Shown here one piece after another: positions 11,542-48,071 of a DNA stretch of 64,000 nt (position 1 is the first letter of the stretch; every line of letters begins with the position of its first letter). The notes beneath the pieces were generated by a model. It was not told where the DNA came from and ran no database searches. It was given only the letters and a program-made list of their open reading frames with translations. The position numbers and the translations under genes were made by a program. This stretch comes from Synaphobranchus kaupii (taxonomy: Eukaryota > Chordata > Actinopteri > Anguilliformes > Synaphobranchidae). The stretch lies in the NCBI GenBank assembly GCA_029718625.1, contig CM056378.1:61961027-62025026 (forward strand), in the 5' to 3' direction.

Positions 11542-12303
11542 TCTATCTCAACCTGGTCTCACAGCCCATTCGTATCTATTCTACGAAATTCCAGTCCCGA
11601 AAATTCGTACTTATTTTACGAATCAGAGATTACACACCAAGTGACTTTACGCTTTTCTCCGATGAATTACGAGACAAAACGGAGATCCACCATTTTTATT
11701 TCACGGTCAAATAAAGCGAATGGGTAAGCTGCCGGTATTGTACTTATAGTTTATACTTATAGTTATAGTACATTCATAGAATACCTTTCTTATTTCGTAA
11801 TTGTATTTTAATGCAATATGATGTATAATTCTCGAGCTTCTTCGTCTCTGCTTTATCTGTGTGGGTTGCTATTTATAGGCTAGTCTTGTAGGCTATTACT
11901 TGCATTATTCAAGCTGAAGTTAGCTAGGTCTGTTCAGATCAGTGCATACTGCATAGGCTGCAATATGATTATTAATCGATTTAGCTTGTGAGCTAGCCAT
12001 CAGAGCGTGTCGTTTTCGGTTCTTTTGAGACGTATAATATGAGAAAACCGAGCATATCTGTAATGGAAACAACCGCGTCTCCCCGTTAACTTCTGTAATA
12101 AACTGCGATTCCCGTGATTCTGTGCGCTGTCTGTGTGTATTGCCCATAGACTGCAGAGACGTGACGGGTTGGCCACTGAATCGGCTTCGTGCCCCAATGA
12201 GCAGCTCCCATAGGAATCCATGGAACCGGTAAGCGGAAGCTGCCTCCAGTTCTTTTTTTAAAATCTCGAATGGTTGAACTTCATTCATAAAACCAACAAA
12301 AGA

Positions 12304-12666
12304 AAGTCTGCCAGTCTGCAAATAACAGGATTCCTAAATGCTATATGCAAAAGGTCTGTAAAAATCTTATAAAAACACATATGCCATATACAAAACTTAA
12401 ATAAAATAAATATGTGGTAGAGAGCTAGCATATACATTTCATGCTAAAATTAAATAGTTCCCTAATACATGGTATTCCTTATAAAAAAAACATTGAGAGA
12501 TTGTATAAGAATTGTATAGAAATATATAATATAATAGGCTACTAATCAACATGCTTTTTTATAAAAACTTTGCAAGTATGATCATATATGATTTTTACAG
12601 ACCTTTTGCATATGGGATTACCTTTGTAAGCATTTAGGAATCCTGATATTTGCAGACTGGCAGACT
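12304..12666. mobile_element. Nested palindromic MITE (left arm, copy 1)
   Basis: Inverted ends AGTCTGCCAGTCTGCAAATA with a palindromic body holding 'aaggtctgtaaaaatc' and its complement. Equivalents: 18978-19336, about 40148-40526 and about 46798-47153, one per arm. It was therefore in the sequence before the arms were duplicated. Confidence 0.65.
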
Positions 12667-13569
12667 TTTTTTTGTTGTTGTTAGTTTAAGCCAACACAAT
12701 CTCTCAAGCATGGTACACAGCAGATATAGAATGTACAAAATACGCACTGTTGTTATTTATAATAATAATAATGCAATTTTATTTAAAGCTTTTTTTACAG
12801 CAAAATCCTATTACACAGTTAAAGTAAAATATATAAAAACAATGGATAAATAAAACAAAAGACTTATTAAAATGAACATGAAAAAAATTCTCAAATCCAG
12901 AAGCTTGAGAAGCAATGCAATAATAATGTTATATAATATAAGGAAGACTTAAAATTCAGTAATTAGACTATCAGTTTCCTTTTCAATTTAGAATTAAACT
13001 AATTTTGTAGGCTGATAACAACAACGATAATTTTCCATGCCAAATAAGCGTTCACGCGCGGCTCTCAAGCCTACAATACTTCGGCATAACCACCAGGTAA
13101 TGTGCGTATGTCAAGTGAAGACCTGACGTGGAGCTACGACCATTTCTACGACCATTACGACCATGACTCAAATGGAGTCATGTTGAAATTTTATAAATCA
13201 CTACTTTGTCGTGATTTTTTACGTAAGCCACACGTAAGATCAAATTTGATCGAAAGTCCTTTTTTTAAATGAGGCCCCTGGTCTTGGCCCTTCTGCCCTT
13301 CTGACCATCTTCTGGCGTAGACTCAAGACTCGCCTGTTTAGATTGCATCTTTGCTCCCTGAATTAATTGTTAGCATGCAAGTCTTGCTTTTTGAAATAGC
13401 ATTTTAGGGGTATGTTAACAGTGATTTATACATCAACACTTGCCATGTTACTGACATTTTGGTTAATGTATTATTTAGACTTGTACTGTTTTTTTTCAGT
13501 ATACCATTGTTTTTTTATTGGACATTTCTCTTATATAGCACTATTTCTCATTCCCCCTCTACCTAACAG

Positions 13570-14428
13570 GTTAAGGAGAGGATATCAGCCTGCCTGGCTG
13601 ACATTTCTATGTGGATGGCTACTCATCACCTGAAGCTCAACCTTCACAATACGGAACTGCGCTTCATACCTCACAGGACCTCCCCACTGCAAGCCCTCTC
13701 CATCACCGTCGACGGTACTATGGTGGCTGCCTCCCGCTCTGCAAGGAACCTGGGGGTGGTCCTGGATGACCAGCTGGACTTCATGGAGCACATCAGGGCA
13801 ACAGCACGGTCTTGCAGGTTCCTCCTGTACAACATCAGGAGGATTCGACCATACCTGACCACCTACTCGACCCAGCTTCTCGTCCAGACCATGGTTATCT
13901 CACGCCTGGATTACTCCTCTCAAAGTTTTCACACATCACCCCCCTGCTGAGGTCAATCCACTGGCTGCCGGTCGCCGCCAGGATCAGCTTCAAAGTTCTG
14001 ACCCTGGCCTACGCTGCAGCTAAAAGGACAAGCCCTTCCTACCTGCAAGACATAATACAACACTAAACTCCAGCTCGACCACTTCGCTCGGACTGCGGAG
14101 CTTCTCCACCCTAGCTCCCCAGTGGTGGAATGAACTGTTCACTCCTCTACGTTCTGATCAAACACTGCCTGCACACCTCTTCAGACTCCACCTTGACTGT
14201 TTTTTGCTTGTTTCCTGTTCCTTAATTCTTTGTTGATTTTATAGTTTATAATGTCTTGTTGTCTTAGCCATAGCTTACTGTGTACTATACTCAATGTTTA
14301 TGACTATGGATAGCTGCTATGTTATGATAAGAAATTAGCTCTATCTGAACTGATGTCATTGACCTTCGGTATGCACTTATTGTGCGTCGGTTTGGATAAA
14401 AGCATCTGCCAAATGAATGTAATGTAAA
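13570..14428 (+). mobile_element. L2-type LINE 3' fragment (left arm, copy 1)
   Basis: Encodes the RT C-terminal region (VKERISACLADISMWM..., ARNLGVVLDDQLDF, LLYNIRRIRPYLTTYSTQLL, VISRLDYS). An internal deletion joins it to FSHITPLLRSIHWLPVAARI. The 3' tail ends 'ggataaaagcatctgcc' and 'aaatgaatgtaatgtaaat'. It is 5'-truncated and dead. Confidence 0.85.
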
Positions 14429-15480
14429 TAAAGTTTATTATTATTATTATTTTATGCAAACTTATGCACTTTTTGCCTTGTAAGTCGCTCTGTATAAGCG
14501 CGTCTGCCAAATGAATAAATGTCTGTATTGATACACTTCTGTAATGTGATGGACCCTTTCTAGATTAAATAAGCTAAATGTCCAGCTAATAAAAGCTTGA
14601 AGACGCTGAAGTTCAATACGTCTCTGAGTGAATTAATACAAAATTTATTTTACAGTGCATTGTGTACGCTATATATTGATGTATTGCAAATTATCTCTTC
14701 TCTTTCAAAACCTGATGGCCAATATACAGCATATAGTAATAATGTTTATCATTTTAGTCATATAAAGGTTAGAAATTGTTTATACCACAACATCTCATAT
14801 TGATTACAATGAAAACACACCAATTTAAAATGGGTAGAAAATTATTTTTATATAATTACCAATAAAATCTCAGATCATGGGATAGACTACATTAACATTT
14901 TTTTTTTAAATATATATTTTTTTTTTACATACAGCTGACACCCTTGTCATTATGTATTTAAAGGGAATGCTTTCATTCCGACAAAGCTTTCACACTAGGC
15001 TACTGCATGCTGTTCACTACTGTCTGCTTATTAATTATCAACCTGCTGGATTTGGAAGGCATTATAAATATCTAGAAGTATCTAAGATAAGTATCTAAGT
15101 ATTAAAAGTTGGGTTCATGTGAGTAGCGTGATCCCATTTGCAATAAACGGAGGGCAACTTCATGTGTGTTTACGGTTGTATCAAGCGGAACTACATTTCG
15201 GCGCCATTTTATTGCTTCGCGCTATGGAAAGTATTGCAGGGAATTGTAGTTTTTTTGTGCAAATTTATTTCCTATATATGTAATTATCTAGGAATTGCTA
15301 ATGTATTATCTAGCTGGCAAGCCAGTTATGCTAGCTACGTTCAACCAGATCTAGGTACCTAGGTAGCTACGCGTGCTTTAGCTGTTGGTAGACAGTCTAT
15401 TAATTATATATATTTCAATATTAATAGCTATTGATAGTCCAAAGTAGATGGCAGTTCTCTATCCGTAATGTCATTAAACT

Positions 15481-16329
15481 GCAATTTTCTGGCATGTTGA
15501 CCACCCTGACATGGATTAATTAGAATATAAATATACTCAAATTGGAAACTATGAAATTAAATACAAGAGCTATGGAAGGGTCAAAGGTCACAACAGTAGG
15601 ATTAGGGTTATGGGTTCCTTAAAATCTAGAGGCTTGAAATTCGGAAGTATGAATATATCCATGGCCTACATTGCATAAGCAAAAGAACAGACCCCTAGCA
15701 CACATAGAAGCTCTATAGCACCACCTACAAATCTCAATTTTTTTAAAACTTTGACTCCTCCTACCTGAGGCACAAAGGCAGCCAAGGCTCCCAAATTTAG
15801 TATACAAGGACATCTCAGCACCCCCTATGACATATACATTTGCATGTTAGCATAAATTAAACTTGTCCTAATTAATTTGACTATTGATGAAAAATAGGTC
15901 TATGAAGGCTGTAAGAATGTTCAAAGGTCATTTTGGATTACTGCTGAACACTGCACTCAGCTTCCCAAAATCGTAGAAGCATGAAATTTTGCTAACTGAG
16001 TCTCATCAGGGCCTCTAGCATGCACACCAAAAACCAGACCCCTAGCATGCACACAGACCCTGTAGCGCCCCCTTGAAAATGTGATTTTTTAACATTTTGG
16101 GCACTCGCCATTTGTACACCGAATGATGTATCATGCTGAAATGTCGGAATCTAGACCACCTCTAGACATACTACAAATAATATCAGAACCAGATCTCTAG
16201 CTAAAAAAAAAACGAGCAGTATATGCTTTCGACAGGGGGCGCCACTTAAATATCTGAATTAATGTACAACACTTTCCGAGGTGATTCTTAGGATCAAGCA
16301 GAGTCAGAAAACATCAGTCATAAGAACAT
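15481..16329. other. Spacer of palindromic element copy 1
   Basis: Non-coding single-copy loop with repeated short phrases such as 'tctagcatgcaca' and 'cagggggcgcc'. The corresponding loop in copy 2 (about 43330-44170) is nearly the same and in the same orientation. Confidence 0.6.
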
Positions 16330-19300
16330 TTCAGTAAAAATGACAATATAGGACTGCCATCTACTTTTGACTATTAATATTAATATTAAGCTATTAATAT
16401 TGAAAATGTATATCCTAACTGTCTACCAGCAGCTAAAACACACGTAGCTAGCTAGGTACCTAGATCTGGTTGAACGTAGCTAGCATAACTGGCTTGCTAG
16501 GTAGATAATACATTAGCAATTCCTAGATAATTACGTATACAGGGAATATATTTGCAAAAAAAACTACAATTCCCAGTAATACATTCCTTAGCGTAAAGCA
16601 ATAAAATGGCGCCGAAATGTAGTTCCGCTTGATACAACCGTAAACACACACGAAGATGCCCTCCGTTTATTGCGAATGGGATCACGCTACTCACATGAAC
16701 CCAACTTTTATTACTTAGATAATTATCTTAGATACTTCTAGACATTTATAATGCTTTCCAAATCCAGCAGGTTGATAATTAATAAGCAGACAGTAGTGAA
16801 CAGCATGCAGTAGCCTAGTGTGAAAGCTTTGTAGGAATTAAAGCATTCCCTTTAAATACATAAAAATGACAAGGGTGTCAGTTGTATGTAAAAAAAATAT
16901 ATATTTAAAAAAGAAAATTGTTAATGTAGTCTATCCAATGATCTGAGATTTTATTGGTAATTATATTTTAAAAAATTTCTACCCATTTTAAATTGGTGTT
17001 TTCATTGTAATAAATATCAGATGTTGTGGTATATACAATTTCAAACTTTTATATGACTAAAATGATAAACATTATTATTACTATATGCTGTATATTGGCC
17101 ATCAGGTTTTTAAAGAGAAGAGATAATTTACAATACATCAATATATAGTGTACACAATGCACTGTAAAATAAATTTTGTATTAATTCACTCAGAGACGTA
17201 TTGAACTTCAGCGTCTTCAAGCTTTTATTAGCTGGACATTTAGCTTATTTAATCTAGAAAGGGTCCATCACATTACAGAAGTGTATCAATACAGACATTT
17301 ATTCATTTGGCAGATGCGCTTATACAGAGCGACTTACAAGGCAAAAAGTGCATAAGTTTGCATAAAATAATAATAATAAACTTTATTTACATTACATTCA
17401 TTTGGCAGATGCTTTTATCCAAAGCGACGCACAATAAGTGCATACCGAAGGTCAATGTCATCAGTTCAGATAGAGCTAATTTCTTATCATAACATAGCAG
17501 CTATCCATAGTCATGGACATTGAGTATAGTACACAGCAAGCTATGGCTAAGACAACAAGACATTATAAACTATAAAATCAACAAAGAATTAAGGAACAGG
17601 AAACAAGCGAAAAACAGTCAAGGTGGAGTCTGAAGAGGTGTGCAGGCAGTGTTTGATCAGAACGTAGAGGAGTGAACAGTTCATTCCACCACTGGGGAGC
17701 TAGGGTGGAGAAGCTCCGCAGTCCGGACAAGCAGACCGAAGTGGTCGAGCTGGAGTTTAGTGTTGTATTATGTCTTGCAGGTAGGAAGGGCTTGTCCTTT
17801 TGGCTGCAGCGTAGGCAGGGTCAGACCTTTGAACCTGAACCTGATCCTGACGGCGACCAGCAGCCAGTGGACTGACAGGGGGGTGATGTGTGAAAACTTT
17901 GGGAGGAGTAATCCAGGCGTGAGATAACCATGGTCTGGACGAGAAGCTGGGTCGAGTAGGTGGTCAGGTATGGTCAAATCCTCCTGATGTTGTACAGGAG
18001 GAACCTGCAGGACCGTGCTGTTGCCCTGATCTGCTCCATGAAGTCCAGCTGGTCATCCAGGACCATCCCCAAGTTCCTTGCAGAGCGGGAGGCAGCCACC
18101 GTAGTACCATTGACGGTGATGGAGAGTGCTTGCAGTGGGGAGGTCCTGTGAGGTATGAAGCGCAGTTCCGTATTGTGAAGCTTCAGGTGATGAGTAGCCA
18201 TCCACATAGAAATGTCAGCCAGGCAGGCTGATATCCTCTCCTTAACCTGTTAGGTAGAGGGGGAATGAGAAATAGTGCTATATAAGAGAAATGTCCAATA
18301 AAAAAACAATGGTATACTGAAAAAAAAACAGTACAAGTCTAAATAATACATTAACCAAAATGTCAGTAACATGGCAAGTGTTGATGTATAAATCAGTGTT
18401 AACATACCCCTGAAATGCTATTTCAAAAAGCAAGACTTGCATGCTAACAATTAATTCAGGGAGCAAAGATGCAATCTAAACAGGCGAGTCTTGAGTCTAC
18501 GCCAGAAGATGGTCAGAAGGGCAGAAGGGCCAAGACCAGGGGCCTCATTTATAAAAAGTACTTTCGATCAAATTTGATCTTACGTGTGGCGTACATAAAA
18601 AAACACGACAAAGTAGTGATTTATAAAATTTCAACGTGACTCCATTTGACCGTGGAAATGGTCGTAGCTCCACGTCAGGTCTTCACTTGACATACGCACA
18701 TTACCTGGTGGTTATGCCGAAGTATTGTAGGCTTGAGAGCCGCGCGTGAACGCTTATTTGGCATGGAAAATTACCGTTGTTGTTATCAGCCTACAAAATT
18801 AGTTTAATTCTAAATTGAAAAGGAAACTGATAGTCTAATTACTGAATTTTAAGTCTTCCTTACATAATATACCATTATTATTGCATTGCTTCTCAAGCTT
18901 CTGGATTTGAGAATTTTTTTCCTGTTCATTTCAAGTCTTTTGTTTTATTTATCCATTGTTTTTATATATTTAACTTTAACAGTCTGCAAATATCAGGATT
19001 GCTAAATGCTTACGAAGGTAATCCCATACGCAAAAGGTCTGTAAAAATCATATATGATCATACTTGCAAACTTTTTATAAAAAAGCATGTTGATTAGTAG
19101 CCTATTATATTATATATTTCTATACAATTCTTATACAATCTCTCAATGTTTTTTTTATAAGGAGTACCATGTATTAGGGAACTATTTAATTTTAGCATGA
19201 AATGTATATGCTAGCTCTCTACCACATATTTATTTTATTTAAGTTTTGTATATGGCATATGTGTTTTTATAAGATTTTTACAGACCTTTTGCATATAGCA

Positions 19301-20090
19301 TTTAGGAATCCTGTTATTTGCAGACTGGCAGACTTTCTTTTGTTGGTTTTATGAATGAAGTTCAACCATTCGAGATTTTAAAAAAAGAACTGGAGGCAGC
19401 TTCCGCTTACCGGTTCCATGGATTCCTATGGGAGCTGCTCATTGGGGCACGAAGCCGATTCAGTGGCCAACCCGTCACGTCTCTGCAGTCTATGGGCAAT
19501 ACACACAGACAGCGCACAGAATCACGGGAATCGCAGTTTATTACAGAAGTTAACGGGGAGACGCGGTTGTTTCCATTACAGATATGCTCGGTTTTCTCAT
19601 ATTATACGTCTCAAAAGAACCGAAAACGACACGCTCTGATGGCTAGCTCACAAGCTAAATCGATTAATAATCATATTGCAGCCTATGCAGTATCCACTGA
19701 TCTGAACAGACCTAGCTAACTTCAGCTTGAATAATGCAAGTAATAGCCTACAAGACTAGCCTATAAATAGCAACCCACACAGATAAAGCAGAGACGAAGA
19801 AGCTCGAGAATTATACATCATATTGCATTAAAATACAATTACGAAATAAGAAAGGTATTCTATGAATGTACTATAACGATAAGTACAAACTATAAGTACA
19901 ATACCGGCAGCTTACCCATTCGCTTTATTTGACCGTGAAATAAAAATGGTGGATCTCCGTTTTGTCTCGTAATTCATCTGAGAAAAGCGTAAAGTCACGT
20001 GGTGTGTAATCTCTGATTCGTAAAATAAGTACGAATTTTCGGGACTGGAATTTCGTAGAATAGATACGAATGGGCTGTGAGACCAGGTTG
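16330..20090 (-). repeat. Right arm, palindromic element copy 1
   Basis: Reverse complement of the left arm, about 3.76 kb. It includes an L2 fragment (17387-18246, minus), a MITE (18978-19336) and the 133-codon open frame on the plus strand (19318-19719). Differences from the left arm include missing or added short stretches in the AT-rich parts, so it is not a perfect mirror. Confidence 0.88.
17387..18246 (-). mobile_element. L2-type LINE 3' fragment (right arm, copy 1)
   Basis: Mirror of 13570-14428 with the same internal deletion and small independent changes, for example a loss in the HNTEL region. Confidence 0.85.
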
Positions 20091-20206
20091 TCTATCTCAT
20101 CCTGAGACACCTCTCTGGGAAGTAGAGTGTCTGGAACAACAATGCCAGCATCCCGTGCATCCCGTGCATGTGGTCCCCTCCACTCCACACCATAGAGGTC
20201 ATCAAC
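20091..20206 (-). pseudogene. Last exon, proximal half (integrase-like gene)
   Basis: Acceptor AG at 20208-20207. It encodes a segment starting VDDLYGVEWRGPHARD and ending within the codons for DEID, where the giant palindromic element begins. It includes a short GCACGGGAT tandem duplication. Confidence 0.78.
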
Positions 20207-20294
20207 CTAGGCACACAGTAGATAATGCAAGATAAAAAGCAAGTATGAACACATAAAACGTAAATCTAGGAAGAGGAAAATGTGCAGAACATAC

Positions 20295-20555
20295 CTCGGG
20301 TGGATTTGGACTGGCTTCACTGTCGATGTTTGCATGCCACAGCTGCAGAGGGGATCGGTTCCTCTCAGTCCTGAGTGGATGGCTATTCCACCCATCCACA
20401 AAGCAGTCTAGGTGATGCTGTAGTCTGGGTAGGAAGACCCAGTGCAGGGCAAAGATGTGCACATCGTTGTCCGGCGAAAGGAGCCCCTCGTCTTCAAGGC
20501 TGCTGAAGATGGAGTGGAAAAGGTCCGTGATACATCCCTCCAGAGACGCTCAATT
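20295..20555 (-). pseudogene. Exon 5 (integrase-like gene)
   Basis: Acceptor CAG before 20555, donor GTATGT after 20295. It starts with the Glu-containing IERLWRDV. Just after this the frame shifts by one base (near 20528). The rest, through HIFALHWVFLPR and NSHPLRTERNRSP, is open in the second frame. Confidence 0.75.
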
Positions 20556-20655
20556 CTGTGAATAAGAGACATTTCTTTTAGAGGGGTAATGTTGGCAAGG
20601 ATTGTAATGACAATTATCATGGTAGATGCATCATGTTTGGTATGTCACACGATAC

Positions 20656-20902
20656 CTTTGGTTGTGCACACTTCTGCCTGCAATATGAGAGTTTCGATCC
20701 ATGCCTTTCACAGAGACCATGAAGGCTGCCACATCTGTTTTCTCCTCCCTTGTCACTTCGGACACGCGACGGCACACCATGGGTCTCCAATGCTTGCCTA
20801 AAGTGTGTCAACACTGTGTCGGCCCGGTTGTTTGCAGCGGCCTGCAGGTACACCACCAGCCTACTGTAGCCATCAATGCCGCCATGTATGACGATCCGCC
20901 AC
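20656..20902 (-). pseudogene. Exon 4, integrase core (integrase-like gene)
   Basis: Starts after ATAG at 20904-20903 with [20 protein letters not shown], which holds the first catalytic-type Asp, and continues to VRSDKGGEN with the second. The frame shifts near 20735-20740, directly after GGEN. The second frame runs to the donor GTATCG after 20656 and codes for SVHNQR at its end. Confidence 0.78.
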
Positions 20903-20979
20903 CTATGCATTCAGAAAAGACAGTGTAAGACAGTGTTATTATTCCCTCTGTTTATTAAAATATTAAAAACTGAAGATTA

Positions 20980-24693: not shown

Positions 24694-25137
24694 TGTGGCG
24701 GCCTGGGGGTTGTCGACTGGCCAGCTAGGACCGGGTAGTGAGCCGCTACCCGGTTGAAGTGTAAATACTTGTAAATAGCGTGCTGTGTGTGTTTTAATTG
24801 TGTTAGCTTGTTAGCCGCGTATTGTGTAAACTAACTGTCACTTTGTTTAAACGTAACTGTAAGTAACTGTAATTTATGTGTGGCTGTGATTGGCTAGGAA
24901 TTTGTAAGTGTGTTCGCCAATCACAGCCAACTAGTTGAAATATAAGGCAGTACCTGAAGTGATTCCTAGTCAGTCTACGAAGGTGCTTGAACTGTGAACA
25001 ACGCTGAGCTGGATCCTGGAAAAGCTAACGGCTCTTTTAAGAGCTGGTAAGGTAGCGTAAATAAAACGAAGCTCGGCTAGCGCGATTCGGGTACTGCAAA
25101 CAGTTGTCTCTCTCCCTCATTCTCCGCGCTCGCTACA
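24694..25137 (+). repeat. 5' LTR of Gypsy-B
   Basis: 444 bp, TG...CA ends. Contains an inner hairpin-forming pair, 'tggctgtgattggct' and 'gccaatcacagcca', and an AATAAA near 25059. The next bases (25139 on) start TGGTGTCCGGAAGTGGG, the expected form of a primer binding site. Confidence 0.93.
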
Positions 25138-25138
25138 T

Positions 25139-25155
25139 TGGTGTCCGGAAGTGGG
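25139..25155 (+). other. Primer binding site of Gypsy-B
   Basis: TGGTGTCCGGAAGTGGG begins one base after the 5' LTR. The leading TGG pairs with a tRNA CCA end. I do not assign the tRNA. Confidence 0.65.
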
Positions 25156-28100
25156 ATGGAACGAGCCCTACTGAGGGAGATGGAGGAACTGGAGCGGACG
25201 ATCGGCGAGCTGACCCGCAGGAAGGCGAGGAAGGCCGGGGCTATAACCAGCCCCGAGTGGCAGATTCCCGCAGTGCGAGTGTCCAGGCGACCGGACGGCT
25301 TCAGCGGCAGACAGGAGGATCCGGCATCGGTAAGCCGCGACGGCACGCTCGCGAAGCCGACAATGCAGCTGAAGCTACCTCGGTTCAACGGAACAGCGTC
25401 GCTGGAGTCGTACCTAGCGCAGCTAGAGCTAGCAGCTCAGCTGGCTAGCTGGACGACGGAGCAGACAGCGGGACACCTGGCACTCGCCCTGGAGGGCCCA
25501 GCGCTGGAGGCGATCCTGGACCTGCCGCCGGCGGAGCGACAAAACCTACAGGCTCTGACCGCAGCACTCCAACGGCGGTTCACCCAGCACCGCTCCGCCG
25601 AAGCAAGCCGGGAAAAGCTGCTAAGCCGCTACCGCTGTGAGGAGGAGAGCTGGGGAAAAGTGGCGGCCGACGTACAGCGCTACGCCCGCGAGGCCTACCC
25701 AGAGTTCGATGCAGCAGCGCAGGAGAAGCTAGCGCTGCATGCATTCCTGCGAGCCCTCACGCCAGAGCGCCTACGTGACCACGTTAGCCTAGCCCAACCG
25801 GGTTCCATAAGCGAGGCTTTGAGCAAGACAACTCGGGCGGAAGACACCCTAGCTATCCGGCCCACTCCACAACCAACCCGCCAGCACGTCAGGGTGGCCG
25901 ACGGCGAGGAGGTCTGCTGGACACGCACGCCACTACAACGGCCAGCGAGGCGACAAGGCCGGTGCTACCGGTGCGACGAGCCGGGCCATATCGCTCGCGA
26001 CTGCCCAGCTCCAGCACCAAAGCCACGGAAGCCCCCTCCGTCGGGGAAACGAGGCAGGGACGGCGCAGTGAGGAGAACGCCGCCCCGGGAACCAACCCTC
26101 CTCAACCAGGTACACACCCCTGTGCCCAAACCCAGTACGGCCTTACCCGCCCAAGTGGCAAAAATTCCAGCTACCTCTCGGGAGGCTAGCACAACCGCCT
26201 TTACAAAGGCGACTGAGCAAGCTACCTCTGCGGAGGCTAGCACAAGCGCCTTTACAAAGGCGGCTGAGCATAAGTCCCATCCACGGGTAGGTCGGCTGGG
26301 CAAAGCCAGTGGGTTGTACCTCCACTGTTGGCTGGACGGGCAGGCCTGCCGAGCCCTGGTGGACACGGGGGCTACCATCTCCCTTGTCCGGCCAGGAGTA
26401 CTCCACAACACCGGCGGGCCCCAACTTCCCGGGGCGTGGACGCCCACCGCCACACCGCTGACATCAGTGACGGGGGCAAAGATGGCGATGAGGGGGAGGA
26501 AAAAGGTGAAGGTGACGGTGACTGGGCAGGAGGTGTCGCACGAGTTCTGGCTAGCTGACATCGCGGACTCGTGCATCATCGGCCTGGACCTGCTGAAATG
26601 CTGGGGAGCCTGCGTTGATGTGTCAAGGGGCAGCATCACTCTTGGCACGGAGACAGTAGCCTTACAGTCCGGCCCGACACGAAAACCGGCCCGACGAGCA
26701 CGCCACCTAGCTACCACAGCCCGGCCAGCAAGCAAGCTACTCCAGCTAGCCACTGCACCCAAGCCACCGTCACTGACCACAGTGCCCCAGCCCGACCACT
26801 CGCTCGCCCACCACCACCAGCCTGCCACACAGCAACCGCCTGCCCAGCCCAAACCAGCTCTGCCTGCCGAGACGACAGCAGCTGTCCACGCCCTGTGGCA
26901 ACAAAGCAACACCGGAGTGGGGGCCGTCCTGTCACAGGAGGATGAAGACGGCGAGCGAGTGGTTGCCTACTACAGCCGGGCCCTGGGGAAGGCGGAACGC
27001 AATTACTGCGTCACCAGGCGGGAGCTGCTCGCTGTGGTCAGGGCGTTGCACCACTTCCGGCCGTACCTGCAAGGCAGCCACTTCCTCCTGCGCACCGACC
27101 ACGCCTCGCTCACCTGGCTCCTAACTTTTAAAGACCCTGAGGGTCAAGTTGCTCGCTGGCTGGAACAACTGCAAGGCTATGACTTCGAAATCCGGCACCG
27201 GGCAGGCCGACTTCATGGGAACGCAGACGCATTATCGCGCCGGCCGTGCGCAGCCCAGGAGTGTCGCTACTGCAGCCGCCAAGAGGAACGGGACCAGGTG
27301 AGCCCAGATGTGGCGGTGGTCCAGGCCAGCGGCGACGCGGAGGGGTGGCTGCCGCTGACGCCCATGGAGCTCCGAGAGGCCCAGGAAGCAGACAGCACGC
27401 TGGGCAAGGTGAGGAGCTGGCTGGAGGCAGGGCAGCGCCCCGAGCGGTCGGTGGTGTCGGCAGAGAGCCCAGAGGTCAAAAGCTACCACAGCCTGTACAG
27501 CAGCCTGGTGCAGCGCGACGGTCTCCTCTACAGACGGTGGCAGGCCCCAGGCCGGGGCAGCGACATCCTGCAGCTGTTGGTGCCACGGGCGCTCCGTCCT
27601 GATGTCCTCAGGTTGGTCCACGGCTCGGTGGGGGCGGGCCACTTCGGCAACAACAAAACCCTGCACCGGCTGAGGGGGAAGTTTCACTGGCCGGGGTGTC
27701 GTCACGACGTCGAGCTCCACGTCCATTGCTGCGACTCCTGCACGGCACAGAAAGGGCCTAGTCAACGCTCCCGAGCACCCCTGCAACAACACCTGGTGGG
27801 GGCCCCCATGGAACGGGTGGGGGTGGACGTCCTCGGGCCCTTCCCCGTCACCGACTCCGGCAATCGCTACATTCTGGTCGCGATGGATTACTTCACCAAG
27901 TGGCCGGAGGCATTCGCTATCCCAGACCAGAGTGCGGTGACGACGGCGGAGAGGCTCGTGGAGGAGATGTTCACCCGTTTCGGGGTCCCTGCCGAGCTCC
28001 ACAGTGACCAGGGGCGCAACTTCGAATCCCAGCTGATGGCGGAGGTCTGCAAACGGCTGGGCGTGACAAAGACCCGAACGACGCCACTCCATCCTCAAAG

Positions 28101-28920
28101 CGACGGCCTCGTCGAGCGATTTAACCGCACGCTAGCTACCCAGCTAGCCATCTTAGCCAGCCAGCACCAGCGGGACTGGGATCGCCACCTGCCATTGGTC
28201 CTGTGGGCTTACAGGTCAGCCGTGCAGGAGTCCAGCCAACTCACCCCTGCTGCCCTGATGTTCGGACGGGAGCTCAGGACACCAGTGGACTTGGTGTTCG
28301 GGGCTCCGCCTGAGCCTGAAGAACCCAGTCGTACTCGGGAGGAGTACTACCACCGGCTGCGGAACCGCCTCCTCGTCGCTCACGACTTCGCCCGCAAGGC
28401 CCAGGCCTCCGCCGGCGTTAAGCAGAAGCGGTGGTACGACACGCGCTGCAGAGGACGGGCCTTTGCAGCGGGAGAGCAGGTCTGGGTTTATTGCCCTGAG
28501 CGGAAGAAGGGCCTGTCGCCCAAGCTGCGAGCGAGCTGGCGGGGGCCTGGAGAAATTGTGGAACGGCTCTCGGAGGTGGTTTATCGCATCAGGATGCCAG
28601 GCCGGGGGCGCCTGGTGGTGCTACATCAAGACCGGCTAGCACCCTACAGGCCCCTGGCAACTCCTGATGCAGCTGAGCCGGAGGTGAGCAGCGACACTGT
28701 GCTACCCAGTGAGCCTGAGCCCAGCGACACTCCGCCGAGCGCTACCAGGAGACCTAAACGACACCGGCGGCCCCCAGGCCACTTACGGGACTTTGATGTG
28801 AGTTGTGGTTGGACTGCGGGGTCGTCAGAGACTTGTGACCCCTTGGGTGGGGGCAATGTGGCGGCCTGGGGGTTGTCGACTGGCCAGCTAGGACCGGGTA
28901 GTGAGCCGCTACCCGGTTGA
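25156..28920 (+). CDS. Gag-Pol polyprotein without RT (Gypsy-B)
   Basis: 1254 residues with no internal stop. I start at ATG 25156 (MERALLREMEELERTIGEL, a coiled-coil-like N-terminus); the frame is open a little further upstream without an ATG. Domains: Gag about 75-230; CCHC knuckle C270-C273-H278-C283; protease with DTGA at D403; a Pro/Ala-rich linker about 505-575. At S584 the sequence passes straight into RNase H (NTGVGAVLSQ), so the whole RT, the thumb and the first RNase H Asp are absent; later RNase H motifs (RRELLAVVRAL, LRTDHASL, NADALSR) remain. Integrase has its zinc finger, D891, D951 and E987 (D,D-35-E) and a GPY/F-like C-terminus. The last 21 codons and the stop lie inside the 3' LTR. 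Gag, PR and IN could be functional; RT activity cannot be. Confidence 0.93.
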   Translation: MERALLREMEELERTIGELTRRKARKAGAITSPEWQIPAVRVSRRPDGFSGRQEDPASVSRDGTLAKPTMQLKLPRFNGTASLESYLAQLELAAQLASWTTEQTAGHLALALEGPALEAILDLPPAERQNLQALTAALQRRFTQHRSAEASREKLLSRYRCEEESWGKVAADVQRYAREAYPEFDAAAQEKLALHAFLRALTPERLRDHVSLAQPGSISEALSKTTRAEDTLAIRPTPQPTRQHVRVADGEEVCWTRTPLQRPARRQGRCYRCDEPGHIARDCPAPAPKPRKPPPSGKRGRDGAVRRTPPREPTLLNQVHTPVPKPSTALPAQVAKIPATSREASTTAFTKATEQATSAEASTSAFTKAAEHKSHPRVGRLGKASGLYLHCWLDGQACRALVDTGATISLVRPGVLHNTGGPQLPGAWTPTATPLTSVTGAKMAMRGRKKVKVTVTGQEVSHEFWLADIADSCIIGLDLLKCWGACVDVSRGSITLGTETVALQSGPTRKPARRARHLATTARPASKLLQLATAPKPPSLTTVPQPDHSLAHHHQPATQQPPAQPKPALPAETTAAVHALWQQSNTGVGAVLSQEDEDGERVVAYYSRALGKAERNYCVTRRELLAVVRALHHFRPYLQGSHFLLRTDHASLTWLLTFKDPEGQVARWLEQLQGYDFEIRHRAGRLHGNADALSRRPCAAQECRYCSRQEERDQVSPDVAVVQASGDAEGWLPLTPMELREAQEADSTLGKVRSWLEAGQRPERSVVSAESPEVKSYHSLYSSLVQRDGLLYRRWQAPGRGSDILQLLVPRALRPDVLRLVHGSVGAGHFGNNKTLHRLRGKFHWPGCRHDVELHVHCCDSCTAQKGPSQRSRAPLQQHLVGAPMERVGVDVLGPFPVTDSGNRYILVAMDYFTKWPEAFAIPDQSAVTTAERLVEEMFTRFGVPAELHSDQGRNFESQLMAEVCKRLGVTKTRTTPLHPQSDGLVERFNRTLATQLAILASQHQRDWDRHLPLVLWAYRSAVQESSQLTPAALMFGRELRTPVDLVFGAPPEPEEPSRTREEYYHRLRNRLLVAHDFARKAQASAGVKQKRWYDTRCRGRAFAAGEQVWVYCPERKKGLSPKLRASWRGPGEIVERLSEVVYRIRMPGRGRLVVLHQDRLAPYRPLATPDAAEPEVSSDTVLPSEPEPSDTPPSATRRPKRHRRPPGHLRDFDVSCGWTAGSSETCDPLGGGNVAAWGLSTGQLGPGSEPLPG
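28845..28856 (+). other. Polypurine tract of Gypsy-B
   Basis: GGGTGGGGGCAA directly before the 3' LTR, here within the coding frame. It is interrupted by a T and a C, which is acceptable for such tracts. Confidence 0.55.
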
Positions 28921-30588: not shown

Positions 30589-30720
30589 CCATATTCAGCT
30601 GAATTTAATGGACAACCCAAAAACATTAATCATTACCCAAAAACATGGCTGAGGCTCCCTTCACTCAGTTTTCTTTTGTACTAACTGACTGTTGTCCATT
30701 AAATTCAGCTGAATATGGCT

Positions 30721-31157
30721 CTCTGCCAGAAGCTGGACATCGAGAGGAGCTTCTGCGCACCTTACCATCCACAGACCAGTGGATTGGTTGAAAGAATGAA
30801 TGGGACAGTGACAAAGTAATGTGGACTTGACACTAAACTGACCTTGACCAATTTACACCACTAAATGGTACTATAGTCACTGTGTTAAGTATTCTATTTT
30901 GGTATTGTATTAAGCAGTGTGGGTCACACATCGCAAACATAAGCTATGCTTTACAATCGAAATAGTATTTAATAACAATGTCAATATGTTTCAAAACTCT
31001 CACCAAATTGGTGGATGAGAATCCTTGGAACTGGGACCTCAGTGCAGCCATGTTTGGCTTGCGCACCAAAGTACAGATCACCACCAAGCACTCCCCATTC
31101 AACCTCATGTTCGACAGAGAAGCCAGATATCCATCTGAGGTCCCAGAGACTTTTGGA
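30721..31157 (+). pseudogene. Integrase exons, right arm
   Basis: Mirror of the left-arm blocks. Block 1 at 30721-30815 ends before GTAATG. Block 2 starts after ATAG at 30964-30965 and ends at 31157 before GTGAGT, a strong donor. These splice-like borders favour a DNA-transposon (Ginger-like) or host integrase gene over a retroelement. Only part of the core is present. Confidence 0.68.
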
Positions 31158-31344
31158 GTGAGTAGCTAGGTCTCTACATTTCCTTCACTCTAACTTATAG
31201 CTGACAGCATTTTCTCTCAATTCAAGGTAGCTGAGAATACAGAGGAAATTGTGGCTACAAAAGTTTATAAGTACTAAAATGGACTATACTTTCTTAAAAT
31301 AGGTGTAATAGCCTTTGAGCTTTATTGGACAGCACAGTGTAGAG

Positions 31345-31430
31345 ACAAAAGGAAAGGTCGGATTCGAACCGACAATGTCGCAAAGAGCACGGGAATCCTA
31401 GTTAGGCCACGCTACAGACTGCGCCACGGG
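31345..31430 (-). other. tRNA-like sequence, right arm
   Basis: On the minus strand: TGGCGCAGTCTGTAGCG (A box) and GGTTCGAATCC (perfect B box) inside a 5-bp T stem GTCGG/CCGAC. Acceptor ends do not pair (TCTCCCC versus CTTTCC). Could be a SINE head or a tRNA pseudogene with intact internal promoter boxes. Confidence 0.55.
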
Positions 31431-31938
31431 GAGACACGCCAGGAAGGCATACTTCGGCTCATACTTAAATAAATAAATCAAATAAATTGTATTAAAAAAA
31501 AAAAGTTTGGTTACTTACAAAAAAATGCTGCTAAAAAAAAGTAAACTAGTTCTGTATGCCACTTGTGCTCACTGGATATCTAAATTAGCTTACTTGAGTT
31601 TTATTAACTAAAATGTGGCTTGTTTAGTCCTTCATTTGTCATAGCCATAGGCTACGTGTAGCCTAGCTACGGTTTTTATTTTGTTTTTTTTAAAGGGTTT
31701 CCGTGCTGTTATAGTTTTGACAGCTCCGCGTTATCATAGCTATGATGCAGCATTAGCAAAAACGGGTATGCAGTAACAGACTAACCTTTTTATATTCATT
31801 CGTTTTTTGTTTTCAAAGAGGGCATTTCCCGGTATAATTGCTGACTTGTGGCGAAAGTGCCGCCGTGGTGATAGATTTACCTTAACATCTGTCCGATGTC
31901 GTCGTTTTTCACGGTAAGAAGAAATTTTATGACAACGT

Positions 31939-39359: not shown

Positions 39360-41417
39360 GGCAGTGAGCTGAGCTCACTCAGTTACTCTCCCACCAACCT
39401 GGTCTCACAGCCCATTCGTATCTATTCTACGAAATTCCAGTCCCGAAAATTCGTACTTATTTTACGAATCAGAGATTACACACCACGTGACTTTACGATT
39501 TTCTCCGATGAATTACGAGACAAAACGGAGATCCACCATTTTTATTTCACGGTCAAATAAAGCGAATAGGTAAGCTGCCGGTATTGTACTTATAGTTTAT
39601 ACTTATCGTTATAGTACATTCATAGAATACCTTTCTTATTTCGTAATTGTATTTTAATGCAATATGATGTATAATTCTCGAGCTTCTTCGTCTCTGCTTT
39701 ATCTGAGTGGGTTGCTATTTATAGGCTAGTCTTGTAGGCTATTACTTGCATTATTCTAGCTGAAGTTAGCTAGGTCTGTTCAGATCAGTGCATACTGCAT
39801 AGGCTGCAATATGATTATTAATCGATTTAGCTTGTGAGCTAGCCATCAGAGCGTGTCATTTTCGGTTCTTTTGAGACGTATAATATGAGAAAACCGAGCA
39901 TATCTGTAATGGAAACAACCGCGTCTCCCCGTTAACTTCTGTAATAAACTGCGATTCCCGTGATTCTGTGCGCTGTCTGTGTGTATTGCCCATAGACTGC
40001 AGAGACGTGACGGGTTGACCACTGAATCGGCTTCGTGCCCCAATGAGCAGCTCCCATAGGAATCCATGGGACCGGTAAGCGGAAGCTGCCTCCAGTTCTT
40101 TTTTTTTTATCTCGATGGTTGAACTTCATTCATAAAACCAACAAAAAGAAGTCTGCCAGTCTGCAAATGACAGGATTCCTAAATGCTATATACAAATCCC
40201 ATATGCAAAAGGTCTGTAAAAATCTTATAAAAATCACATATGCCATATACAAAACTTAAATAAAATAAATATGTGGTAGAGAGCTAGCATATACATTTCA
40301 TGCTAAAATTAAATAGTTCCCTAATACATGGTACTCCTTATAAAAAAAACATTGAGAGATTGTATAAGAATTGAATAGAAATATATAATATAATAGGCTA
40401 CTAATCAACATGCTTTTTTATAAAAACTTTGCAAGTATGATCATATATGATTTTTACAGACCTTTTGCATATGGGATTACCTTCGTAAGCATTTAGGAAT
40501 CCTGATATTTGCAGACTGGCAGACTTTTTTTTGTTGTTGTTAGTTTAAGCCAACACAATCTCTCAAGCATGGTACACAGCAGATATAGAATGTACAAAAT
40601 ACGCACTGTTGTTATTTATAATAATAATAATGCAATTTTATTTAAAGTTTTTTTTACAGAAAAATCCTATTATACAGTTAAAGTAAAATATATAAAAACA
40701 ATTGATAAATAAAACAAAGACTTATTAAAATGAACATGAAAAAAATTCTCAAATCCAGAAGCTTGAGAAGCAATGCAATAATAATGGTATATAATGTAAG
40801 GAAGACTTAAAATTCAGTAATTAGACTATCAGTTTCAATTAGTTTTCAATTTAGAATGAAACTAATTTTGTAGGCTGATAACAACAACGATAATTTTCCA
40901 TGCCAAATAAGCGTTCACGCGCGGCTCTCAAGCCTACAATACTTCGGCATAACCACCAGGTAATGTGCGTATGTCAAGTGAAGACCTGTCGTAGAGCTAC
41001 GACCATTTCCACGGTCAAATGGAGTCACGTTGAAATTTTATAAATCACTACTTTGTCGTGATTTTTTACGTACGCCACACGTAAGATCAAATTTGATCGA
41101 AAGTACTTTTTTTAAATGAGGCCCCTGGTCTTGGCCCTTCTGCCCTTCTGACCATCTTCTGGCGTAGACTCAAGACTCGCCTGTTTAGATTGAATCTTTG
41201 CTCCCTGAATTAATTGTTAGCATGCAAGTCTTGCTTTTTGAAATAGCATTTTAGGGGTATGTTAACAGTGATTTATACATCAACACTTGCCATGTTACTG
41301 ACATTTTAGTTAATGTATTATTTAGACTTGTACTGTTTTTTTTCAGTATACCATTGTTTTTTTATTGGACATTTCTCTTATATAGCACTATTTCTCATTC
41401 CCCCCTCTACCTAACAG

Positions 41418-42276
41418 GTTAAGGAGAGGATATCAGCCTGCCTGGCTGACATTTCTATGTGGATGGCTACTCATCACCTGAAGCTCAACCTTCACAATAC
41501 GGAACTGCGCTTCATACCTCACAGGACCTCCCCACTGCAAGCCCTCTCCATCACCGTCGACGGTACTATGGTGGCTGCCTCCCGCTCTGCAAGGAACCTG
41601 GGGATGGTCCTGGATGACCAGCTGGACTTCATGGAGCACATCAGGGCAACAGCACGGTCCTGCAGACTCCTCCTGTACAACATCAGGAGGATTCGACCAT
41701 ACCTGACCACCTACTCGACCCAGCTTCTCGTCCAGACCATGGTTATCTCACGCCTGGATTACTCCTCTCAAAGTTTTCACACATCACCCCCCTGCTGAGG
41801 TCAGTCCACTGGCTGCCGATCGCCGCCAGGATCAGGTTCAAAGTTCTGACCCTGGCCTACGCTGCAGCCAAAAGGACAAGCCCTTCCTACCTGCAACACA
41901 TAATACAACACTAAACTCCAGCTCGACCACTTCGCTCGGACTGCGGAGCTTCTCCACCCTAGCTCACCAGTGGTGGAATGAACTGTTCACTCCTCTACGT
42001 TCTGATCAAACACTGCCTGCACACCTCTTCAGACTCCACCTTGACTGTTTTTCGCTTGTTTCCTGTTCCTTAATTCTTTGTTGATTTTATAGTTTATAAT
42101 GTCTTGTTGTCTTAGCCATAGCATACTGTGTACTATACTCAATGTTCATGACTATGGATAGCTGCTATGTTATGATAAGAAATTAGCTCTATCTGAACTG
42201 AGGTCATTGACCTTCGGTATGCACTTATTGTGCGTCGCTTTGGATAAAAGCATTTGCAAAATGAATGTAATGTAAA
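41418..42276 (+). mobile_element. L2-type LINE 3' fragment (left arm, copy 2)
   Basis: Same fragment and same internal deletion as 13570-14428, with a few substitutions (for example NLGMVLDD instead of NLGVVLDD). Confidence 0.85.
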
Positions 42277-45204
42277 TTAAGTTTATTATTATTATTATTA
42301 TTTTATGCAAACTTATGCACTTTTTGCCTTATAAGTCGCTCTGTATAAGCGCATCTGCCAAATGAATAAATGTCTGTATTGATACACTTCTGTAATGTGA
42401 TGGATCCTTTCTAGATTAAATAAGCTAAATGTCCAGCTAATAAAACCTTGAAGACGCTGAAGTTCAATACGTCTCTGAGTGAATTAATACAAAATTTATT
42501 TTACAGTGCATTGTGTACGCTATATATTGATGTATTGTAAATTATCTCTTCTCTTTCAAAACCTGATGGCCAATATACAGCATATAGTAATAATGTTTAT
42601 CATTTTAGTCATATAAAGGTTAGAAATTGTTTATACCACAACATCTCATATTGATTACAATGAAAACACACCAATTTAAAATGGGTAGAAAATTATTTTT
42701 ATATAATTACCAATAAAATCTCAGATCATGGGATAGACTACATTAACATTTTTTTTTAAAATATATATTTTTTTTTACATACAGCTGACACCCTTGTCAT
42801 TATGTATTTAAAGGGAATGCTTTCATTCCGACAAAGCTTTCACACTAGGCTACTGCATGCTGTTCACTACTGTCTGCTTATTAATTATCAACCTGCTGGA
42901 TTTGGAAGGCATTATAAATATCTAGAAGTATCTAAGATAAGTATCTAAGTATTAAAAGTTGGGTTCATGTGAGTAGCGTGATCCCATTCGCAATAAACGG
43001 AGGGCAACTTCATGTGTTTACGGTTGTATCAAGCGGAACTACATTTTGGCGCCATTTTATTGCTTCGCGCTATGGAAAGTATTGCAGGGAATTGTAGTTT
43101 TTTTGGTGCAAATTGATTTCCTATATATGTAATTATCTAGGAATTGCTAATGTATTATCTAGCTGGCAAGCCAGTTATGCTAGCTACGTTCAACCCGATC
43201 TACGTACCTAGGTAGCTACGCGTGCTTTAGCTGTTGGTAGACAGTCTATTAATTATATATATTTAAATATTAATAGCTATTGATAGTCCAAAGTAGATGG
43301 CAGTTCTCTATCCGTAATGTCATTATACTGCAATTTTCTGGCATGTTGACCACCCTGACATGGATTAATTAGAATATAAATATTCCCAAATTGGAAACTA
43401 TGAAATTAAATACAAGAGCTATGGAAGGGTCAAAGGTCACAACAGTAGGATTAGGGTTATGGGTTCCTTAAAATCTAGAGGCTTGAAATTCGGAAGTATG
43501 AATATATCCATGGCCTACATTGCATAAGCAAAAGAACAGACCCCTATCACACATAGAAGCTCTATAGCACCACCTACAAATCTCAATCTTTTTAAAACTT
43601 TGACTCCTCCTACCTGGAGCACAAAGGCAGCCAAGCCTCCCAAATTTAGTATACAAGGACATCTCAGCACCCCCTATGACATATATATTTGCATGTAAGC
43701 ATAAATTAAACTTGTCCTAATTAATTTGACTAATGATGAAAAATAGGTCTATGAAGGCTGTTAGAATGTTCATAGGTCATTTTGGGTTACTGCTGAAGAC
43801 TGTACTCAGCTTCCCAAAATCGTAGAAGCATGAAATTTTGCTAACTGAGTCTCATCAGGGCCTCTAGCATGCACACCAAAAACCAGACCCCTAGCATGCA
43901 TACAGACTCTGTAGCGCCCCCTTGAAAATGTGATTTTTGAACATTTTGGGCACTCGCCATTTGTACACCGAATGATGTATCATGCTGAAATGTCGGAATC
44001 TAGACCACCTCTAGACATACTACAAATAATATCAGAACCAGATCTCTAGCTAAAAAAAAAAGTGCAGTATATGCTTTCGACAGGGGGCGCCACTTACATT
44101 TCTGAATTAATGTACAACACTTTCCGAGGTGATTCTTAGGATCAAGCAGAGTCAGAAAACATCAGTCATAAGAACATTTCAGTAAAAATGACAATATAGG
44201 ACTGCCATCTACTTTTGACTATTAATATTAATATTAAGCTATTAATATTGAAAATGTATATCCTAACTGTCTACCAGCAGCTAAAACACGCGTAGCTAGC
44301 TAGGTACCTAGATCTGGTTGAACGTAGCTAGCATAACTGGCTTGCTAGGTAAATAATACATTAGCAATTCCTAGATAATTATGTATACAGGGAATATATT
44401 TGCAAAAAAAAACTACAATTCCCAGTAATACATTCCTTAGCGTAAAGCAATAAAATGGCGCCGAAATGTAGTTCCGCACACAAAGATGCCCTCCGTTTAT
44501 TGCGAATGGGATCACGCTACTCACATGAACCCAACTTTTAATACTTAGATAATTATCTTAGATACTTCTAGACATTTATAATGCTTTCCAAATCCAGCAG
44601 GTTGATAATTAATAAGCAGACAGTAGTGAACAGCATGCAGTAGCCTAGTGTGAAAGCTTTGTAGGAATTAAAGCATTCCCTTTAAATACATAAAAATGAC
44701 AAGGGTGTCAGCTGTATGTAAAAAAAAAAAATATTTAAAAAAGAAAATTGTTAATGTAGTCTATCCCATAATGAGATTTTATTGGTAATTATATTTTTTT
44801 TAAATTCTACCCATTTTAAATTGGTGTTTTCATTGTAATAAATATCAGATGTTGTGGTATATACAATTTCTAACTTTTATATGACTAAAATGATAAACAT
44901 TATTATTACTATATGCTGTATATTGGCCATCAGGTTTTTAAAGAGAAGAGATCATTTACAATACATCAATATATAGTGTACACAATGCACTGTAAAATAA
45001 ATTTTGTATTAATTCACTCAGACGTATTGAACTTCAAGGTTTTATTAGCTGGACATTTAGCTTATTTAATCTAGAAAGGGTCCATCACATTACAGAAGTG
45101 TATCAATACAGACATTTATTCATTTGGCAGATGCGCTTATACAGAGCGACTTACAAGGCAAAAAGTGCATAAGTTTGCATAAAATAATAATAATAATAAA
45201 CTTT

Positions 45205-46062
45205 ATTTACATTACATTCATTTGGCAGATGCTTTTATCCAAAGCGACGCACAATAAGTGCATACCGAAGGTCAATGACATCAGTTCAGATAGAGCTAAT
45301 TTCTTATCATAACATAGCAGCTATCCATAGTCATGAACATTGAGTATAGTACACAGTAAGCTATGGCTAAGACAACAAGACATTATAAACTATAAAATCA
45401 ACAAAGAATTAAGGAACAGGAAACAAGCAAAAAACAGTCAAGGTGGAGTCTGAAGAGGTATGCAGGCAGTGTTTGACCAGAACGTAGAGGAGTGAACAGT
45501 TCATTCCACCACTGAGGAGCTAGGGTGGAGAAGCTCCGCAGTCCGGACAAGCAGAGCGAAGTGGTAGAGCTGGAGTTTAGTGTTGTATTATGTATTGCAG
45601 GTAGGAAGGGCTTGTCCTTTTGGCTGCAGCGTAGGCCAGGGTCAGAACTTTGAACCTGATCCTGGCGGCGACCAGCAGCCAGTGGACTGACCTCAGCAGG
45701 GGGGTGATGTGTGAAAACTTTGGGAGGAGTAATCCAGGCGTGAGATAACCATGGTCTGGACGAGAAGCTGGGTCGAGTAGGTGGTCAGGTATGGTCAAAT
45801 CCTCCTGATGTTGTACAGGAGGAACCTGCTGTTGCCCTGATGTGCTCCATGAAGTCCAGCTGGTCATCCAGGACCATCCCCAAGTTCCTTGCAGAGCGGA
45901 AGGCAGCCACCATAGTACCGTTGACGGTGATGGAGAGTGCTTGCAGTGGGGAGGTCCTGTGAGGTATGAAGCGCAGTTCCGTATTGTGAAGGTTGAGCTT
46001 CAGGTGATGAGTAGCCATCCACATAGAAATGTCAGCCAGGCAGGCTGATATCCTCTCCTTAA
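45205..46062 (-). mobile_element. L2-type LINE 3' fragment (right arm, copy 2)
   Basis: Mirror of 41418-42276 with a small deletion after the HIRAT codons. Confidence 0.85.
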
Positions 46063-48071
46063 CCTGTTAGGTAGAGGGGGAATGAGAAATAGTGCTATAT
46101 AAGAGAAATGTCCAATAAAAAAACAATGGTATACTGAAAAAAAAACAGTACAAGTCTAAATAATACATTAACCAAAATGTCAGTAACATGGCAAGTGTTG
46201 ATGTATAAATCACTGTTAACATACCCTTGAAATGCTATTTCAAAAAGCAAGACTTGTATGCTAACAATTAATTCATGGAGCAAAGATGCAATCTAAACAG
46301 GCGAGTCTTGAGTCTACGCCAGAAGATGGTCAGAAGGGCAGAAGGGCCAAGACCAGGGGCCTCATTTATAAAAAGTACTTTCGATCAAATTTGATCTTAC
46401 GTGTGGCGTACGTAAAAAATCACGACAAAGTAGTGATTTATAAAATTTCAACGTGACTCCATTTGACCGTGGAAATGGTCGTAGCTCCACGTCAGGTCTT
46501 CACTTGACATACGCACATTACCTGGTGGTTATGCCGAAGTATTGTAGGCTTGAGAGCCGCGCATGAACGCTTATTTGGCATGGAAAATTATCGTTGTAGT
46601 TATCAGCATACAAAATTAGTTTAATTCTAAATTGAAAAGGAAACTGATAGTCTAATTGCTGAATTTTAAGTCTTCCTTACATTATATACCATTATTATTG
46701 CATTGCTTCTCAAGCTTCTGGATTTGAGAATTTTTTTCCTGTTCATTTCAAGTCTTTTGTTTTATTTATCCATTGTTTTTATATATTTAACTTTAACAGT
46801 CTGCAAATATCAGGATTCCTAAATGCTTACGAAGGTAATCCCATATGCAAAAGGTCTGTAAAAATCATATATGATCATACTTGCAACGTTTTTATAAAAA
46901 AGCATGTTGATTAGTAGCCTATTATATCATATATTTCTATACAATTCTTATACAATCTCTCAATGTTTTTTTTTATAAGGAGTACCATGTATTAGGGAAC
47001 TATTTAATTTTAGCATGAAATGTATACGCTAGCTCTCTACCACATATTTATTTTATTTAAGTTTTGTATATGGCATATGTGTTTTTATAAGATTTTTACA
47101 GACCTTTTGCATATAGCATTTAGGAATCCTGTTATTTGCAGACTGGCAGACTTTCTTTTGTTGGTTTTATGAATGAAGTTCAACCATTGAGATAAAAAAA
47201 AAGAACTGGAGGCAGCTTTAACAGCTTACGGGTTCAATGGATTCCTATGGGAGCTGCTCATTGGGGCCTCTATGATTGGGGCACGAAGCCGATTCAGTGG
47301 TCAATCCGTCACCTCTCTGCAGTCTATGGGCAATACACACAGACAGCGCACAGAATCATGGGAATCACAGTTCATTACAGAAGTTAACGGGGAGACGCGG
47401 TTGTTTCCCTTACAGATATACTCGGTTTTCTCATGTTATACGTCTCAAAAGAACCGAAAACGACACGCTGTGATGGCTAGCTCACAAGCTAAATCGATTA
47501 ATAATCATATTGCAGCCTATGCAGTATGCACTGACCTGAACAGACCTAGCTAACTTCAACTAGTAATGCAAGTAATAGCCTACATGACCAGCCTATAAAT
47601 AGCAACCCACACAGAGAAAGCAGAGACGAAGAAGCTCGAGAATTATACATCATATTGCATTAAAATACAATTACGAAATAAGAAAGGTATTCTATGAATG
47701 TACTATAACGATAAGTATAAACTATAAGTACAATACCGGCAGCTTACTCATTCGCTTTATTTAACCGTGAAATAAAAATGGTGGATCTCCGTTTTGTCTC
47801 GTAATTCATCGGAGAAAATCGTAAAGTCACGTGGTGTGTAATCTCTGATTCGTAAAATAAGTACGAATTTTCGGGACTGGAATTTCGTAGAATAGATACG
47901 AATGGGCTGTGAGACCAGGTTGCTCCCACACAGTCAGTCAGTCAATCACTCTCAATCACTCACTCATTCACCTGTACCCCACCCCCCCACCCCATTGTCT
48001 GTATTTGAAAAACATTATTTTATTTTGATAATGTGCCATGTCTGTTGGTGTTCAATATCTGTTTGTGTTAA

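Follow-up and report, generated by a model that had tools for sequence, protein, structure and literature searches.

Two nearly palindromic DNA segments of 8.5 kb lie close together on contig CM056378.1 of Synaphobranchus kaupii (assembly GCA_029718625.1), and they raise the question of what kind of element such palindromes represent and which class of enzyme moves them. The stretch analysed, referred to here as the window, spans 64,000 nucleotides (positions 61,961,027 to 62,025,026 of the contig). An earlier note had described the two segments as independent insertions of a very large foldback-type DNA element, a description that holds, with a different 7-mer bordering each copy.

Over 8.6 kb, copy A (11549-20090) shares 96.5% identity with copy B (39395-47922), and both begin and end as the earlier note had placed them, with an identical 60 bp forming perfect inverted repeats. 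BLAST comparison of each element with itself pairs positions 1-3881 with 4841-8542 in copy A, corresponding to a left arm at 11549..15429 (plus strand), a centre at 15430..16388 and a right arm at 16389..20090 (minus strand). In copy B, element positions 1-3884 pair with 4843-8528, giving a left arm at 39395..43278 (plus strand), a centre at 43279..44236 and a right arm at 44237..47922 (minus strand). The near-complete palindromes claimed earlier, with arms of about 3.8-3.9 kb, are thus present with arms of about 3.7-3.9 kb, but the centre between the arm matches, at about 0.96 kb, is slightly longer than the 0.85 kb first given. By BLAST, the arms of copy A are 99.1% identical in the outer 1.1 kb and 94.4% further in; the corresponding values for copy B are 94.1% and 93.6%. 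Comparison of the flanks shows that each copy has its own perfect 7-bp duplication, as had been reported: TCTATCT for copy A (11542..11548 and 20091..20097) and CTCCCAC for copy B (39388..39394 and 47923..47929).

None of the 10 reading frames of copy A that were scanned has a Pfam family above the cut-off, in agreement with the earlier statement that no transposase is evident. On the plus strand, the left arm of copy A includes an open frame of 127 aa (13567..13947), with a 91-aa counterpart in the right arm (17977-18249, minus strand). The 127-aa frame matches no Pfam family at E 0.1, and we take it to be a fragment of a LINE-like reverse transcriptase. The transposon reading frames of the window resemble bony-fish ones.

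The insertion of copy A is precise and produced a 7-bp duplication. Its target is a gene whose integrase-core pieces (rva_4, Pfam PF24764) are found at 20205..20910 on the minus strand. When the flanks of the copy are joined, the reading frame is restored and continues the integrase-core gene. Another contig (C10) has an uninterrupted paralogous site that aligns to the joined flanks without gaps, with 234 of 240 bases identical and one of the six differences located in the 7-mer; this empty site supports the position of both the target gene and the left duplication.

Target duplications were collected, as the earlier note had advised, from 20 loci chosen by their best-scoring ends, a choice biased to young copies, and from the two copies in the window, two shortened copies and a copy of 16 kb. 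An exact 7-bp duplication borders 21 of the 23 copies with both flanks readable. These comprise 18 of 20 full-length copies (A and B included), both shortened copies and the single copy of 16 kb. Two copies have no exact duplication: six of the seven letters agree in L025 and two in L021. L022, with a masked right flank, and L026, whose right end was not reached, were left out of the scoring. Among the 18 full-length positives, the match between the flanks never extends beyond 7 bp.

The search for further copies covered 1.50 Gb in 94 contigs. With up to two mismatches allowed, the 30-base end gives 286 forward and 266 reverse matches, 552 altogether, against none for the reversed control, which excludes chance. 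The first 152 bp, used as a query, led to 651 candidate places, and many of the 40 scored are inverted pairs about 8.4 kb apart. Pairing was assessed on 100 listed matches, all exact, from contigs C1 through part of C3. Of these, 38 are single and the other 62 make up 31 facing pairs, 23 of which span 8.3-8.75 kb. Extrapolation suggests full-length copies of the order of 130 in the genome. Among the other forms, two shortened copies (L029 and L030) are palindromes with internal deletions. A longer copy (L040-L042), read over 9 kb of its approximately 16 kb, has arm sequence at both ends and in part of the middle, and may carry an insertion. Five matches to the 16-base end on viral contigs were not accepted as family members, since the three of the five that were compared with copy A by BLAST gave no match, and they are taken as chance. 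The same 16-base end is absent from the papers searched, and among the titles and opening lines of abstracts listed for palindromic, foldback and P-superfamily elements in fish and other vertebrates, none describes a giant palindromic transposon of a vertebrate.

The history of the family can be read from its arms. Pairwise differences among 21 full-length copies range from 0.05 to 2.1% (median 0.59%), copy B being the most diverged. A midpoint-rooted tree was made of the inner arms of 20 copies, leaving out L017 because of its 0.7-kb insert; all 20 left arms form one group and all 20 right arms another. The printed supports are 1.0 for one side group and 0.06 for the other, values taken as one split seen after rooting. 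Between the two inner arms of a copy, the mean difference is 3.4% (range 1.5-3.8%, with the chimera L021, discussed below, at the bottom), whereas same-side inner arms of different copies have a median difference of 0.53% (left) or 0.63% (right). Inner arms that group by side, in copies that are nearly identical, indicate that the palindrome arose once, and the intact palindrome has spread as a unit, recently. It is scarcely credible, against this pattern, that each palindrome was formed separately by local inverted duplication, or that the second arms are artefacts of sequencing or assembly. The slightly closer likeness of the outer arms of one copy, given below, is what such an origin would have in its favour, but the inner arms cluster by side and not by copy, and different 7-mers border each copy on both its sides. 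The arm differences common to many copies, together with the empty paralogous site, rule out an artefact, and the earlier argument that arm differences speak against a sequencing hairpin is sustained on the same grounds.

The outer 1.1 kb of the arms shows no separation by side. Here, arms of the same copy differ by 0.66% and arms of different copies by 0.81%, with none of 5000 permutations as low; in the inner part, the same comparison gives 11 of 5000. This slightly greater likeness within copies points to occasional arm-to-arm exchange. Two short conversion tracts are seen: one covers six diagnostic sites within 10 bases of the right arm of copy A, the other four diagnostic sites of the left arm of L010.

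Recombination between copies is indicated by L021, the sole arm chimera among 20 copies. At 67 diagnostic sites of its right arm, the outer 32 are left-type and the next 26 right-type, with the last nine of neither type in this alignment. A chimera that has no target duplication is the outcome predicted for crossing-over between two copies. One of the two expected junctions of a reciprocal partner, searched with one flank, had no match in the genome.

The family also has a weak palindromic target preference. Across 21 target sites, approximately A-W-S-T is preferred to the left of the 7 bp and mirrored on the right, so that the symmetry extends four bases to either side; inside the 7 bp, T and A are favoured at the third and fifth positions. 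The summed information is 2.40, compared with a control mean of 1.06, and none of 5000 random control sets, drawn from this window, is as high; the best single column has P = 0.0026. The 21 sites are different targets, with no gene in common and no GTANTAC consensus.

These features invite comparison with Galileo, a P-superfamily element of Drosophila. In the parts of PMC2775673 that describe it, Galileo has 7-bp duplications and foldback arms, and has caused inversions by ectopic recombination. A giant transposase-less copy, copy 112 of D. willistoni, measures 9,021 bp with terminal inverted repeats of 4,246 and 4,680 bp, according to excerpts of PMC2775673 and PMC4168063, and chimeras with non-matching 7-mers are mentioned in an excerpt of PMC3573991. 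Going by these descriptions, the eel family shares with Galileo the 7-bp duplications, the very long foldback arms (3.7-3.9 kb here), the giant copy devoid of transposase and a chimera without matching flanks, here one of 20 copies. A palindromic target motif around the duplication is a further likeness. Excerpts of PMC4168063 give a motif of 15 bp around the 7-bp duplication for Galileo and one of 14 bp for P; the letters here differ from the motifs of P, 1360 and Galileo. As the same source, in the part available, states that target motifs are always palindromes reaching beyond the duplication, a property general for transposons, this motif is supporting and not diagnostic of P or Galileo.

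The differences from Galileo are also clear. Most copies here are of the giant form (23 of the 31 pairs listed), the host is a vertebrate and not Drosophila, the duplication consensus GTANTAC does not fit the 21 sites, and no transposase-bearing relative was found. Galileo arms have long tandem repeats, in contrast to those studied here: the tandem repeats in copy A have units of 6-13 bp, with at most five copies each. With the consensus and the tandem repeats, two Galileo-specific features, both unmatched, the palindromes are classified as a probable P-superfamily element that most resembles Galileo, and not as Galileo itself. A P-superfamily element of fish, zebrafish Pdre2, has similar ends of the form CA...TG (CATACCTGTCAAC in Pdre2, CAACCTGGTCTCA here), but it differs in having 13-bp inverted repeats, an 8-bp duplication and a length of about 1.1 kb in a reporter, as given in excerpts of PMC10983969.

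The genome does contain P-type transposases, with 44 matches to PF21787 that belong to at least two families. Loci of P-I (L043-L046 and L055-L058) are about 96-98% identical. P-II (L047-L054) has 13 matches of equal score; the four loci fetched are 99.95-100% identical, its copies have 4 kb in common at 99.98%, and one of them (L048) has an open frame of 956 aa. For P-II, 11.4 kb of one locus and parts of a second were read, and P-I loci were read over 9.4 kb and, on contig C11, over 6 kb with 500 bases masked. The palindrome ends were not found in any of these stretches, and what the P-I and P-II loci share with copy A is limited to short or low-complexity words. The 12-base end occurs in none of the eight loci L043-L050, the 9.4-kb P-I stretch contains neither CAACCTGG nor CCAGGTTG, and the 6-kb stretch, with its 500 masked bases, has one 7-base match. 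Nor were the P-I and P-II elements' own ends found.

In the fully listed stretch, all 11 P-type matches are more than 15 kb from the listed exact ends, the smallest distance being 19.5 kb. A search for the exact 16-base end with a base other than C after it gave one match, which was rejected as an autonomous partner, being a mutated end that has a listed forward end at palindrome spacing, 8.4 kb away. The autonomous element with these ends that the earlier note had asked for was thus not found by the end search or at the P-type loci, which were read in part. Since no P-type transposase was seen between these ends, membership of the P superfamily is unproven, and the assignment rests on the anatomy and the duplication length.

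The earlier view that a 7-bp duplication narrows the source superfamily proved sound, and this length, taken with the anatomy, favours the P superfamily (Galileo type) over Dada. Dada elements have duplications of 6-7 bp and are widespread in ray-finned fish (excerpts of PMC3706591 and PMC8869645), but the families described in the parts of PMC3706591 available lack terminal inverted repeats and use multicopy small-RNA genes as targets, whereas the ends here are perfectly inverted over 60 bp and the targets have no gene in common. No tRNA was found in the 22 target loci, nor any Rfam family in the eight of the 22 searched, with flanks that are short, mostly 100-200 bases. The inverted ends and targets other than small-RNA genes rule out Dada, and an origin from such an element is very improbable. 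Tetris, a Drosophila foldback element assigned to Mutator, resembles the present family as a non-autonomous foldback whose autonomous partner is likewise not known, but it has 8-10-bp duplications and 220-bp tandem repeats in its arms (excerpts of PMC4079207). The 7-bp length in the 18 full-length positives agrees neither with the 8-10-bp duplications expected of a Mutator foldback nor with hAT, for which the Dada literature, in the parts available, gives about 8 bp.

A broader alternative is that the same mobile palindrome is moved by a transposase from outside the P superfamily, belonging to a 7-bp-cutting branch of another superfamily or to one as yet undescribed. We regard this as a substantial possibility, although the less probable one. 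It accords with the P-type loci read, none of which has these ends, and with the unseen Galileo consensus, and the part of PMC4079207 consulted assigns the majority of foldback elements to Mutator. Against it, among the superfamilies compared, the available portions of the sources give 7 bp for Galileo and 6-7 bp for Dada, and Tetris, placed in Mutator, has longer duplications; the palindromic symmetry of the target sites also reaches outside the duplication, a trait of P and Galileo, though this is said to be general for transposons.

A Galileo-like element served by a P-superfamily transposase would agree with the 7-bp duplications, the palindromic target preference, the chimera and the giant arms. 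We therefore favour, with some reserve, a non-autonomous cut-and-paste transposon that is palindromic over nearly its entire length, a counterpart of Galileo most likely moved by a transposase of the P superfamily. In such a pathway, a transposase acting in trans would recognise the identical ends of the palindrome, cut out the 8.5-kb unit and insert it where the target is cut with a 7-bp stagger. The palindrome arose once, presumably by inverted duplication of a sequence already holding the LINE-like fragment, and the whole palindromic unit was then amplified, with occasional arm-to-arm conversion and, as the single chimera without a duplication suggests, recombination between copies.

It is more speculative, and in our judgement rather doubtful, that the family rearranges chromosomes by recombination, L021 being one breakpoint, and that it represents a currently active, high-copy vertebrate counterpart of Galileo, its standard form being a transposing 8.5-kb palindrome kept partly symmetric by arm-to-arm conversion. 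Whether such palindromes give rise to inversions in vertebrates, like Galileo in flies, can be tested, as can the question of which enzyme in this genome makes the 7-bp duplications. As a rule, long palindromes are fragile. A transposing palindrome of 8.5 kb puts to the test both the tolerance of the cell and the handling of such a substrate by a transposase, and the near-identical copies at many sites offer a natural set for population tests. Finally, the left arm of copy A includes a small foldback (12288..12683) with 55-bp arms that are 93% complementary, which looks like a short nested element.

Thirteen matches of equal score in the host genome make up the P-type transposase family that includes the loci L048, L051 and L052 (G000:C8:22065870-22077268, on a host contig) and L054 (G000:C20:4383196-4387195, on another). 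Beyond the transposase, two of the P-type loci have 4 kb in common at 99.98% identity, and masked stretches lie close to other copies of the family. The family may belong to a much larger, possibly virus-like unit.

Two copies of the 8.5-kb palindrome family outside the window carry insertions. In the L026 copy, an insertion of about 5.4 kb (L026 846-6222), with no open frame of at least 110 aa, lies at element position 640; the L017 copy is interrupted near its centre by about 0.7 kb (L017 3790-4526). At 29392-31938 the window holds a further palindrome, near-perfect and 2.55 kb long, with a self-complementarity of 93%. Its own ends, ACGTTGTCATAAAATTTC, differ from those of the 8.5-kb family, and no exact flanking duplication of at least 6 bp was found directly at these ends.

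The window also contains a very young LTR retrotransposon (24694-29300). Its 444-bp direct repeats match each other at 100% identity, and its open frame of 1279 aa was labelled by eye as gag-pol-like. In a second LTR-type element (1284-8589), which has minisatellites inside it, long gag-pol-like frames lie between repeats of about 1.3 kb that are 98.7% identical. A Tc1-like element, also labelled by eye (52324-53950), comprises 153-bp inverted repeats and transposase-like frames. Finally, a tandem repeat occupies 61839-62290, with shifts of about 49 bp and copies about 80% alike.
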